Shown one piece after another: positions 12,038 to 16,876 of a stretch of DNA of 17,097 nt. The stretch lies in contig JABDFB010000046.1 of the NCBI GenBank assembly GCA_013286765.1, forward strand, positions 1 to 17,097. Reading direction: 5' to 3'. The number at the start of each line of letters is the position of its first letter. Within the stretch, counting starts at the first letter, position 1. The notes under the pieces are model-generated. The model ran no database searches. It worked only from the letters and a program-made list of their open reading frames with translations, and had not been told where the DNA came from. The translations under genes were made by a program, and so were the position numbers. The DNA comes from Deltaproteobacteria bacterium. GTDB taxonomy: Bacteria; Bdellovibrionota; UBA1018.

Positions 12038-13306
12038 ATGAGTTCGATGATCGATTTAAACCAAGTATTAAGGGAACAGCAGGTTGAAGCTCAAGAGCTT
12101 CGAAGGTTTTGGAAAGAGAGAGAAAGGACTTCTGAGTTTAAAGAAATGATTCTCTCCTCCGGACTGGTGAAAGTCGTGACCGGAATCCGACGGAGCGGAA
12201 AATCAACGTTGTGTCTAGGCTCTATTCCTTCGGATTATCCATTTTCTTATGTCAATTTTGATGACGAACGACTTGTTGGACTTAAGACTGAAGACTTAAA
12301 CAAAGTCTACGAAACTCTATTACAAATCCAACCCGAAACTAAAATATTCATCTTCGATGAAATTCAAAATATTGAGTCATGGGAACTGTTTGCAAATCGG
12401 CTCCAACGAAAGAAAATAAATCTTATCATCACCGGCAGTAACGGCAAGCTCCTCAGCCAAGAACTAGCCACTCATCTCACAGGGAGACATCTTTCACTTG
12501 AGCTAAGCCCTCTTTCCTATCGAGAATTTCTGAAATTTAATAATTTGGAAGTCTCTGAAACAATGACAACTGAAGAGCGGGCACTCGTCAAAAATAAAAT
12601 GCAGACCTATTTCGAAATAGGCGGCTTTCCAGAAGTTGTTCTAGGCGAGCCAGGAGGCCCCTATTTGAGAGAGCTTTTTGATAAAATTATCACCAGAGAT
12701 ATTGCACAGCGACACCGATTGCGAAATACGAGAATTCTAAAAGAAATAGCGCTCTATTTGGTGCAGCAATCTGGGTCCATGACAAGTCTGGCAAACTTGG
12801 AAGAAACATTCCAAATAAATAGTATCAATACGTTGAGAAGCTACTTTCAGTATCTTCAAGAAGTATTTCTTCTTTACGAAGTCCAAGGCTATTCAGGAAA
12901 ACTAAAAGAACGCACTACACGTCCCAGAAAATACTACGTCTGTGACTTAGGCATGTGGTCAGCCCTAAACACAAAGCCCACACTAGACTTAGGAATGAGA
13001 CTGGAAACGCTCATCTATCTACACCTATCGCGATCATTTCCCCACGTTTACTACTTAAAGGAACCCGGCTTTGACATCGATTTCTGCGTGGTTAAAGAAA
13101 GAACCCCCACCCTTCTTATTCAAGTTTGCTATTCCATTCAAAATAGCGCTACAAGGACGAGAGAAATTCGCTCGTTGGTCTCCGCGGCAAAACAGTATCG
13201 CATGAAGTCTGGCACGATTGTAACTTGGGACGATGAAGATAGCTTAGTTGAAGAGGGGATTGAGATCAGAATAGTCCCAGCTTGGAAATTTCTTTTGTCG
13301 GTTTAA
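12038..13306 (+). CDS. AAA-type ATPase with DUF4143 domain
   Basis: This 422-residue protein belongs to the AAA_14 + DUF4143 group. The ATPase part has Walker A GIRRSGKST (49-57), Walker B IFIFDEIQ (103-110), a sensor strand ITGSN (131-135) and the family signature TGRHLSLELSPLSYREFL (149-166). A winged-helix-like middle follows: YLVQQSGSMTSLANLEETF, then YFQYLQEVFLLYEVQGYS. The tail (about 325-400) has a PD-(D/E)XK-like core, with FDIDFCV and LLIQVCYS where an active nuclease would have E-V-K. This Q-V-C form seems usual in one branch of these proteins, so nuclease activity is unlikely. The family is widespread and patchy, and its role is unknown. It stands alone, immediately behind the double palindrome, without a clear ribosome-binding site. 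Confidence 0.9.
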   Translation: MSSMIDLNQVLREQQVEAQELRRFWKERERTSEFKEMILSSGLVKVVTGIRRSGKSTLCLGSIPSDYPFSYVNFDDERLVGLKTEDLNKVYETLLQIQPETKIFIFDEIQNIESWELFANRLQRKKINLIITGSNGKLLSQELATHLTGRHLSLELSPLSYREFLKFNNLEVSETMTTEERALVKNKMQTYFEIGGFPEVVLGEPGGPYLRELFDKIITRDIAQRHRLRNTRILKEIALYLVQQSGSMTSLANLEETFQINSINTLRSYFQYLQEVFLLYEVQGYSGKLKERTTRPRKYYVCDLGMWSALNTKPTLDLGMRLETLIYLHLSRSFPHVYYLKEPGFDIDFCVVKERTPTLLIQVCYSIQNSATRTREIRSLVSAAKQYRMKSGTIVTWDDEDSLVEEGIEIRIVPAWKFLLSV

Positions 13307-13340
13307 AAAAGGGATTCTTTCGGGCTCACTCGGGGCTCAC

Positions 13341-13400
13341 GGCAGGTCGACTACGAATTTTTCGCCGGTGAAGGCCGCGTGTGTAGTAGTACCGCCTGCC
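13341..13400. repeat. imperfect inverted repeat GGCAGG...CCTGCC in intergenic region
   Basis: GGCAGG (13341-13346) and CCTGCC (13395-13400) are complementary. Inside them ACTAC (13350-13354) and GTAGT (13383-13387) also pair, with unequal bulges. Just before it, GGGCTCAC occurs twice (13322-13329 and 13333-13340). The 195-bp gap 13307-13501 otherwise holds no ORF. It could be a structured RNA, a degraded terminator or a mobile-element remnant. Confidence 0.35.
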
Positions 13401-13435
13401 TACTTCACTTCCTGAGACGCCGCATAGCTATTAAT

Positions 13436-13458
13436 GACACATGCCCTTTCGGACACAT
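13436..13458 (+). repeat. short direct repeat GACACAT (two copies, 16 bp apart)
   Basis: GACACAT occurs at 13436-13442 and 13452-13458, just upstream of the candidate -10 box of the large exported protein gene. Closely spaced 7-mers may be binding sites for a regulator or part of an element end. The repeat is short and could be chance. Confidence 0.35.
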
Positions 13459-13461
13459 TTT

Positions 13462-13467
13462 TATAAT
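13462..13467 (+). promoter_or_regulatory. candidate -10 box (TATAAT) of the large exported protein gene
   Basis: A perfect TATAAT lies 35 bp before the ATG at 13502, with no convincing -35 at 16-18 bp. That arrangement suggests an activator-dependent promoter, possibly using the GACACAT repeat. The leader would be about 28 nt with a weak AGG ribosome-binding element 4 nt before the ATG. Confidence 0.35.
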
Positions 13468-13501
13468 GCATTGTTTCACGTTAGTATGATGATTAGGCTA
13501 T

Positions 13502-16500
13502 ATGTTTAAGATCCAATTCCAAATAGACAGTTTTAAGCTTTTTTCTGCAATATTTTTTCTATCTTTATTTCTTATTCTTCCTTCGTTCTGCTTTGCAGGG
13601 GATGTCTTTCCAAACCACTTCAAAGAAATGGTCCGACCGCTCGGCCCGGCTGAAGATACACGGGCCGTAGAAGCGAAAGTTGAGCAGGTGCTCTCTAAAA
13701 TTCTAGAAAGACTTGAGATTCCTTACATAGATGATGAAGGCGACGAAAAAAAGGGGCCTGCTCTACAGACCCGTGGCTTTTTCCATAAGTTACAGGGGAT
13801 TGCAGATCGGCAGAAACCGCCAGGTGCTCAGGTAATGATTGCAGGAGGCGTACTAAGAAGCCTACTCGGTTATATTTATGCAGAAGTGCATAGGGCAAAG
13901 CTAAGGGATAAGACAAAATCCACAATCGATGTCTTAGATGCGATGATCGCTTCTGATAGGCCAATCGAAATTCCGGAAGCATTAGGCATTGGAAGTGACT
14001 TAGACATTTTAATCGTTCCATCCAAAGAAGGTACAAAAACGGACGATGCCCTTAAACACAAAGTTCTTGAATTTATTAATTCTGCGGAGAAAGCGGCATC
14101 GTCGTTGTTTGAGACTAAAGGAAAGCTGAAGTATTCTATTGTTCCTATTGGAGATGTGAAGGACTATTCTGAACAGCTAACGAGAACGACGGCACAGGGT
14201 GGGAGTTCTCTCGATTGGTTGGCTTTTTCAATTGGCGGTGGAAAAATTAAAAATCCGGATCAGTATCCCCATATCTTTCGTCAATTTATTCTAGGTACTT
14301 ACGACTACCTGCCTCCCAGCGCTTCAGCGAAGCAGGGTGATAAAGCCGAAGAATCAGATAAACAAACCATTCGTGGGCTCCGTGCCCTTTTAGAAATTCC
14401 TTTTCTGGAATTATCGGAAGAGGGACAGAAGCAGTTGGAGTCGGAATTAAATAAGCTCTTAGCTAAAATTAAGAGCGGTTATGAACTATCTCCGGAGGCC
14501 ATAGAACAATTTGGTAAAATGATGAGGAACGCTCAGTTTGGTGGAGCTAGGAATCGATTTCGCCTTCCTATTCCTAGGACCCCAGTCGATGCTCTTGCTC
14601 AAGAGGTTTCTCAGGCAATTAAGAAAAACGAAAAAAATCTTTCTCTCATTCCTGAGTTTCTTGATAGCTCAGATCCTTTTCAGAGAGAGGAGAAGTCTGA
14701 CCCCTGCCGTCTGCGAGAAAAAGGACTCTTGATGAAGAAAGAAGATTTTCTTGCCCAATATACAGACAATGGGGTTCTCTATCATGGTACGCCGGAAACG
14801 GATAATTTTCTTGCTATTGTGCGAAATGGACTTGTACGTAGCAGTGAAATTCATGGAAGAGCCGCATTTGGCTCAGGAGCTTATTCCAACTGGAAAAGAC
14901 AAACTGCTGCAGAGTATGGAATTCCCATTCGGCTTGAAGTAAAGAAAGAAGCTCCCCTTAGAATTATAGATTGGAATCAGGTAAAAGATCTAGAGCCTGT
15001 TCGAGAAATGGTTCGACTAGAAAAAAAGCACTCGCCGAACCTAGAATTTCCTTTTCAATATTTGGCCGAGGCTTGTGGCGTTGATTTCATTGTTAATGAA
15101 CACGTCCTCATTCAAAATTCAGGGGCTGTGGAACTTCCTAAGAAAATTGAAGATCTTATACAGTTCAATACAGCATGGGTAGAGAGCCTTGTAAATCAAT
15201 ATAATAAAGATAAGAAGTTATTTTTTCAATTCTATTTCGATTTAGAAGACCAAATACCTCCTATGTTAAAAGCGATCGCTGGTAATGATGCTCTGATCAG
15301 GTTAGCACAGCAGATGGGAAAGAAGGTTCTTCCATCGCCTATGTTGCGAAATCAGGTTCTAGAGTTATTGAGGGACTCGGATATTTCGACTAGAACGAGT
15401 AGTCGAGATTTTAATCTAAAAAGTTCCACCCCTGCTTGGATTAAATATCTTGTAGTGAGAGGAATTGAAGGAGTTTTTACTGTTCTGGAAGACCCTCATA
15501 TACAAATTGAACTATTTAATCTTGAAGTATTTCTTTTGAAAGACTTTTCGTTTCATGCGACAGAATTGCTAGATAGAGTGAAAATCGAGAATCCGGCTGT
15601 GCTTCATGAAATTAAATCTCGAACGCTTAAGGAATTAAGAGACCCAAACTCCTCAAAAAAAAATGAGGCTTGCAGACGCATTCCACTTTCGGTTCTTCAA
15701 GAGGATCCTGAAATTCAAGATGCCGTATTGGATGCTCTTTCTGACAAAAGCCCCTCTGTGCGAAATGCCGCGAGCGCAACGCTCCTAAAATTAGAACCCA
15801 AAGACTTTCGAAAAACTGAGAAATTGGAGGCCCAGCTGTTAGCACCCAAAGGGTTTTCTTTACTCGCTGAAGATGGGAAATGGTTAGTGGCACTAGCTAG
15901 TCACTTCAAACTTCAAAATCCGGCAATCCATATTGCAGTGGCGAATCTGTATGGTTCCTGGACGTATGACGCTAAAGGGACTATTATTCGGGCTCTCGTA
16001 AATTTGAGCCCTAAAGATCCACGCGTAATAGAAATACTCAAGCCCAAATTACTTCGAGACATTCGAGGATTATTTGGTTCTACTCCTCCCCGTTATACGG
16101 CCGCGCTTCATTTGGCTGCCCTATTAGAGATTCAGGATAGGGATTTTCACCTTGAAATGGCGAGGTTATTTGACCATTTTAGCAATCGTAATGTAAATGT
16201 TGAAGATTCTAAGACAACGCTCACTCAGGTGACCGGTGATCTCATTCTGTTAAAGCCCAGAGACGCTCGTGTAGTAAAGAGTCTAAAGGCTTCAATGGAT
16301 AAAATTCTCGATTATGATACTGACTCGGAAGAACTGAATAGTGTGGTAGACCTATTTTTGGGATTCAAAATAGATAATCCTGAACGTCGTCTCAAGGTAA
16401 TCAAGAAAGCACCTCTAAAGAAGCTTTTGCAAGCTTTTCGTGGTCAGGATCTCTCGACACTTGAGCAGAGGACATTCATCAATCGAATCGTTGCAGCTGA

Positions 16501-16876
16501 ATGGACAGCGGAAGAGCTTGAAGAGGAATCCAGCGATACTATCCAGTTTCTTAAAGAAATGAAACCGGACCCAATCATCTATCGTGGTTTGATTGATGGG
16601 CTACGCGGCTATAATTATACTCCGATTGTAGTTAAAAACTTCCTAGGCATGCTTCGAATCCTTGGAAGGCCACAGGACCCTCAGATGGCGTTACAATATG
16701 ATTCGGCTCTAGCCTTGCATTCTCATCCGTCTAAAAACAAAACTTCCGATGGAAATAGTTGCTCTACTCCGGGCCAGGAAAATAAAGAAATGACTCATCT
16801 CCAAGAGTGCATGGGGAAGATTAAAATGGAAATGCCGATGGTCCAAGAGCAACCTATCGACCAACCGCGGCGGTGA
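13502..16876 (+). CDS. large exported protein with NTase-like, PARP-like ADP-ribosyltransferase and HEAT-like regions
   Basis: No full-length family is recognised for this 1124-residue protein. Residues 1-32 are a signal peptide (cleavage after SFCFA). At ~110-175, IAGGVLRSLLG and IGSDLDILIV (D166, D168) resemble the GG-x-x-R and D-x-D motifs of polymerase-beta-like nucleotidyltransferases, with a longer insert than usual. At ~420-550 lies an ART-like module. It has VLYHGTPETDN (H428), NGLVRSS, AAFGSGAY (Y461) and DFIVNEHVLIQN (E533), matching the H-Y-E triad order of PARPs, including the N-E-hydrophobic strand. From ~570 to ~1050 it is mostly helical, with HEAT-like units (DPEIQDAVLDALSDKSPSVRN at ~734-754). 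The C-terminal ~50 residues look disordered. Likely a periplasmic or secreted ADP-ribosylating or AMPylating effector; substrate and activity are inference. Neighbouring genes give no immunity protein. Confidence 0.7.
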   Translation: MFKIQFQIDSFKLFSAIFFLSLFLILPSFCFAGDVFPNHFKEMVRPLGPAEDTRAVEAKVEQVLSKILERLEIPYIDDEGDEKKGPALQTRGFFHKLQGIADRQKPPGAQVMIAGGVLRSLLGYIYAEVHRAKLRDKTKSTIDVLDAMIASDRPIEIPEALGIGSDLDILIVPSKEGTKTDDALKHKVLEFINSAEKAASSLFETKGKLKYSIVPIGDVKDYSEQLTRTTAQGGSSLDWLAFSIGGGKIKNPDQYPHIFRQFILGTYDYLPPSASAKQGDKAEESDKQTIRGLRALLEIPFLELSEEGQKQLESELNKLLAKIKSGYELSPEAIEQFGKMMRNAQFGGARNRFRLPIPRTPVDALAQEVSQAIKKNEKNLSLIPEFLDSSDPFQREEKSDPCRLREKGLLMKKEDFLAQYTDNGVLYHGTPETDNFLAIVRNGLVRSSEIHGRAAFGSGAYSNWKRQTAAEYGIPIRLEVKKEAPLRIIDWNQVKDLEPVREMVRLEKKHSPNLEFPFQYLAEACGVDFIVNEHVLIQNSGAVELPKKIEDLIQFNTAWVESLVNQYNKDKKLFFQFYFDLEDQIPPMLKAIAGNDALIRLAQQMGKKVLPSPMLRNQVLELLRDSDISTRTSSRDFNLKSSTPAWIKYLVVRGIEGVFTVLEDPHIQIELFNLEVFLLKDFSFHATELLDRVKIENPAVLHEIKSRTLKELRDPNSSKKNEACRRIPLSVLQEDPEIQDAVLDALSDKSPSVRNAASATLLKLEPKDFRKTEKLEAQLLAPKGFSLLAEDGKWLVALASHFKLQNPAIHIAVANLYGSWTYDAKGTIIRALVNLSPKDPRVIEILKPKLLRDIRGLFGSTPPRYTAALHLAALLEIQDRDFHLEMARLFDHFSNRNVNVEDSKTTLTQVTGDLILLKPRDARVVKSLKASMDKILDYDTDSEELNSVVDLFLGFKIDNPERRLKVIKKAPLKKLLQAFRGQDLSTLEQRTFINRIVAAEWTAEELEEESSDTIQFLKEMKPDPIIYRGLIDGLRGYNYTPIVVKNFLGMLRILGRPQDPQMALQYDSALALHSHPSKNKTSDGNSCSTPGQENKEMTHLQECMGKIKMEMPMVQEQPIDQPRR

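Follow-up and report, generated by a model that had tools for sequence, protein, structure and literature searches.

What kind of protein does the long open reading frame (ORF) of contig JABDFB010000046.1 encode, and where would it act? The contig (assembly GCA_013286765.1, from a Deltaproteobacteria bacterium placed in Bdellovibrionota, UBA1018) was analysed over its full 17,097 nucleotides, referred to here as the window. A preliminary description of the window had read the ORF as an exported, PARP-like ADP-ribosyltransferase (ART) with a histidine-tyrosine-glutamate (H-Y-E) triad and a HEAT-like body. The ORF is indeed there, and H428 (in HGT), Y461 (in GSGAY) and E533 (in NEHVL) sit where they had been placed. 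The signal-peptide-like N-terminus, the ART and the HEAT-type C-terminus also stood; an N-terminal nucleotidyltransferase (NTase) domain resembling CCA-adding enzymes had been overlooked. Computation yielded two folds, an NTase signature, the ART His and Tyr, a pairing of the two domains, and a tail and a third ART residue that vary. The features are as follows, with counts out of 62 aligned sequences unless stated otherwise.

13502..16876, +, whole ORF, 1124 aa, ATG start: signal peptide, NTase, ART, HEAT-like region
13502..13597, +, hydrophobic N-terminal segment, predicted signal peptide by hydropathy, residues 1-32
13658..14620, +, CCA-adding-enzyme-like NTase domain, residues ~53-373
13844..13858, +, NTase motif GG..R (G115, G116, R119), from alignment conservation
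13997..14005, +, NTase DxD (D166, 60/62; D168, 60/62)
14153..14155, +, third NTase carboxylate, D218 (59/62)
14372..14383, +, R291-G-L-R294 (R291, 60/62; R294, 61/62)
14681..15208, +, ART domain, residues ~394-569, from the model and from PF00644 in relatives
14783..14791, +, H428-G-T, first ART residue (H 62/62, G 61, T 61)
14882..14884, +, Y461, second ART residue (62/62)
15098..15100, +, E533, place of the third ART residue, variable
15239..16771, +, HEAT-like C-terminal region, residues ~580-1090, limits estimated, Pfam match at 709-777 alone

Single-sequence family searches of the query returned repeat-type matches alone, all under curated cut-offs (three in Pfam up to E 1), in agreement with the earlier view that no named family covers it; relatives and structure were therefore needed to judge the ART claim. 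An initial search retrieved 12 further proteins, a profile search then gave 54 (P0002-P0055), and a third search with the N-terminal module added two short ones (P0056 and P0057), the ~8000 best candidates being scored in each protein search. Alignment A2 has 55 rows, the query included. The 62-row alignment consists of A2 plus 11 locus sequences, minus four short rows (P0018, P0041, P0052 and P0054); outside it stand P0056, P0057, L020 and L022 and, as repeats or fragments, L001, L003, L006-L009, L011, L012 and L018. The family may extend beyond these rows: L021 (1-2205, -) and L019 (1-3003, -) are very divergent and exported-looking, with HWT or HGT plus G.G.Y behind an NTase-like GG.../D.D segment.

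Modelled in isolation, the ART domain takes an ART fold (pLDDT 91.8, pTM 0.86), and its matches among PDB structures include PARP1/2. His and Tyr are invariant in all 54 A2 rows that have the ART part and in 62/62 rows of the wider alignment, the query being counted in both. This invariance, together with the fold of the isolated domain, lifts the motif match beyond chance, and an ART of the PARP/diphtheria (H-Y) kind, as first proposed, is thus supported; from the aligned sequences, the two residues would belong to a putative NAD+ pocket of the H-Y ART superfamily. L001, L003, P0056 and L022 likewise retain both motifs, and P0057 ends before the ART. One sequence weighs against invariance, since the weak relative L020 has neither motif and brings the count to 62/63. 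L020 (505-2199, -), a 564-aa exported-looking ORF and the second weak match in genome G276, lacks the NTase, HGT and G.G.Y, with its last ART stretch still recognisable, and is a probable decayed relative. At the level of family profiles, PF00644 was not matched by the query itself in the Pfam scan up to E 1. It matches 23 of 44 scanned members at E <= 0.5 (best 4.1e-7); among eight relatives, five reach the curated cut-off of 26.7 bits (P0029 exactly, as rounded), two lie at 23-26 and one has no match. Weak ART-PolyVal matches occur in 10/44.

The third residue fared differently. While H428 and Y461 are constant among homologues, position 533 varies freely, and the H-Y-E triad could not be upheld as a conserved unit. 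In A2 this position is E in 14/54 rows, T in 10, Q in 6, D in 5, R in 4, G in 4, K in 3 and S in 3, with others besides; in the wider alignment it is Glu in 12/62. Because Glu and non-Glu interchange at least 12 times on the tree, and because the close relatives P0005, P0015 and P0016 (80-85% identical) carry Q, R and T, E533 does not qualify as a conserved catalytic residue. For the family as aligned, a strict H-Y-E label is wrong, though the query has Glu. In mono-ART PARPs the third triad position varies too, a resemblance that argues against the making of poly(ADP-ribose) chains. The wording of the preliminary description suggests a genuine H-Y-E poly(ADP-ribose) polymerase. This would accord with the Glu of the query and with the PARP1/2 structures, but we consider it very improbable in view of these substitutions and of the query's three Pfam matches up to E 1, which include neither WGR nor the PARP regulatory domain. 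Just before the variable position, D528 (15083-15085) is Asp in 60/62 rows, possibly a substitute acid or a structural residue. A near-constant His and Tyr beside a free third position provides a natural test of the residues that an H-Y ART needs.

The N-terminal domain combines an NTase fold with GG..R and DxD, as class II NTases do. D218 may act as a third catalytic carboxylate, to judge from its strand position in the model, and R291-G-L-R294 is presumably the counterpart of arginines in a class II NTase motif. The full signature (G116, R119, D166, D168 and D218) is present in 48/48 A2 rows that are gapless there, seven of the 55 rows being gapped at these positions and uncounted; P0038, one of the seven, has His in place of D168. 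EDxxR, the base-selecting motif of class II CCA-adding enzymes, was not found in the query, which reads KQTIR there, and many relatives have KQT(I/V)R. Weak NTP_transf_2 matches occur in 4/44 scanned members. The pairing of the two domains is near-constant, with the ART in 54/55 and the DxD region in 52/55 A2 rows; the four rows lacking one or the other are short ones. In L004 and L017 the NTase signature is gone and H and Y are retained. These two are joined on a tree that was built quickly and had long branches flagged; the join may be false, in which case the signature was lost separately in each. An NTase working on RNA or protein, with the ART as a non-catalytic NAD+/ADP-ribose-binding module, is on this evidence rather unlikely: H and Y never vary within the 62 rows, whereas L004 and L017 have lost the NTase signature and P0038 one of its Asp residues. 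Members without the signature are a natural test of what the NTase domain does.

The N-terminus of the query is strongly hydrophobic (best 12-residue Kyte-Doolittle mean, 2.7), which supports the signal peptide proposed earlier. By a crude hydrophobicity test (hydropathy >=2.0 over 10 residues), 30 of the 49 A2 rows that have an N-terminus are hydrophobic there, compared with 64 of 1100 internal 40-mers taken as controls; the other 19 may use another export route or have misplaced starts. At the opposite end, the HEAT-like body is borne out by a HEAT_2 match at residues 709-777 (E 1.1e-4, under the Pfam cut-off) and by clear HEAT arrays in some relatives (P0002, HEAT_2 E 1.1e-19). Tails differ among the 44 scanned members, 11 of which have HEAT matches and 3 ankyrin matches. 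Some proteins are very long, such as P0020 with 2046 aa in total, and others have little past the ART, such as P0013 with 106 residues there. The HEAT part may serve as a target-binding scaffold, which fits its replacement by ankyrin repeats or other sequence in relatives. An ART fold that hydrolyses NAD+ without an acceptor, the protein acting by NAD+ drain, appears fairly unlikely, as the large tail and the further enzyme domain hint that the target is a specific macromolecule, and PARP is the strongest sequence signal.

NAD+ and nucleoside triphosphates are cytosolic, and a signal peptide ahead of two domains that would use them is most simply understood if the protein works in somebody else's cytosol. 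We regard it as moderately likely that the protein is a secreted or translocated two-enzyme effector acting in the cytosol of another cell. The signal peptide would take it out of the producer's cytosol, and it would reach that of a prey or host cell, where both substrates occur. There the H-Y-type ART would put a single ADP-ribose on a macromolecular target. The class II-like NTase would either attach a nucleotide to that target, or to one linked with it, or regulate the ART; selecting the target would fall to the exchangeable tail, which is HEAT in the query. Such a role fits relatives in Holosporales, which are intracellular, and in a phylum with well-known predators. That two transferases stay fused in both Bdellovibrionota and Holosporales, although their tail varies, points to a common means by which other cells are attacked or manipulated. 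No evidence turned up for the envelope-stress enzyme also suggested earlier, and no test was aimed at that role.

P0018 and P0026 carry Holosporales names, and P0056 an Alphaproteobacteria name. The genome scan added at least five loci, in Holosporales UBA11393 (two contigs), Bdellovibrionaceae Jr-03apr18-63, Oligoflexia nKLKbin12 and Bdellovibrionales RIFOXYC1_FULL_37_79, a list that is a lower bound because the contig scan used two peptide patterns. The Bdellovibrionaceae genome carries the gene twice, the other copy being L010 (1-3354, -), with an open frame of 1929 aa. Counting genomes known beforehand as carriers, which both samples take in, the family occurs in 10/368 genomes from the phylum to which the Bdellovibrionaceae locus belongs (three previously known) and in 2/289 from the class that includes the Holosporales locus (one previously known). 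Neither tblastn of plasmid and phage records nor a pattern scan of viral contigs gave a family member. The citrate synthase of the window is 64-74% identical to those of 16 genomes of the phylum, the next values within this phylum being 54%, which makes Bdellovibrionota the likely source and is in line with the possibly predatory lineage suspected at the outset. None of these 16 nearest genomes is among the 10 carriers; the gene is thus patchy, as expected if it is mobile or often lost.

This patchiness, the hydrophobic N-termini and the HEAT or ankyrin tails argue against a non-effector enzyme, CCA-adding-like plus Tpt1-like, with which the producer would repair its own RNA or modify RNA ends; the Tpt1 match spans just 78 residues, and we consider this role quite improbable. 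A narrower form of the two-enzyme effector, in which both domains act sequentially on the same prey or host RNA ends (for example tRNA) and the tail chooses the cell or complex, is doubtful. If true, one domain would add a nucleotide and the other ADP-ribose, giving a two-step nucleic-acid capping effector common to a predator-rich phylum and intracellular bacteria.

In the window, an AAA_14/DUF4143 ATPase lies immediately upstream (12038-13306, +) and matches the PADLOC candidate PDC-S01 (E 1.8e-104). By eye, similar ATPases can be recognised in the vicinity of the family gene in L005 (17833-19002, -) and L017 (2940-3761, -), and none was seen near it in L002 or L004. In L002, a Bdellovibrionaceae MAG, the family gene is followed directly by another ORF (12511-13572, +) that may, judged by eye, encode an exported, repeat-like protein. 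Reading through the ORF lists of L001, L002, L005 and L004 by eye gave no common neighbour and no evident immunity gene. At the window's left end lie genes for tRNA-Leu(cag) (462-545, -) and tRNA-Gln(ttg) (816-890, -).

Several known systems resemble this protein in one part. Class II CCA-adding enzymes have the base-selecting ED where the query has KQ, and the query has an ART behind and would lie outside the producer's cytosol if exported. Tpt1/KptA tRNA 2'-phosphotransferase aligns with the domain in part only, and the motifs of the query are PARP-type (HGT, G.G.Y). To our knowledge, MenT toxins have no ART. Compared by description only (PMC10435456), they are likewise NTases, toxins on tRNA acceptor stems, but belong to a toxin-antitoxin system. 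The ART effectors listed in tabular passages of an atlas of Legionella effectors (PMC11696984) carry Arg-Ser-Glu residues, and 'nucleotidyltransferase' is absent from its main text; the main text of PMC7764402 contains neither 'PARP' nor 'nucleotidyltransferase'. By title and abstract start, no description of an exported NTase-ART family was found in the literature searched, which took in few subscription papers, and an earlier mention is possible.

Among the closest known systems are diphtheria toxin and its homologues (Albireti, Peptono), whose other domains differ from those of this family. Diphtheria toxin retains its catalytic Glu, unlike this family, which has no conserved Glu. Within PARP/ARTD (PF00644), the likeness is closest to mono-ARTs such as PARP10/12/14, whose triads are H-Y-x. 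The query differs from PARP/ARTD in being exported-looking, bacterial and NTase-fused and in having no PF00644, regulatory or WGR match. Bacterial PARPs share with it a bacterial PARP domain and a sporadic distribution; as far as the main text of PMC4245714 goes, they are mostly WGR plus PARP, some being PARP alone or with the regulatory domain, 27/28 are H-Y-E, and the words nucleotidyltransferase and signal peptide are absent. Set beside these systems, the ORF appears, from its sequence relatives and predicted folds, to represent a little-known bacterial family, often with an export signal, that joins an NTase and an ART to a changeable tail and is a candidate two-transferase effector.
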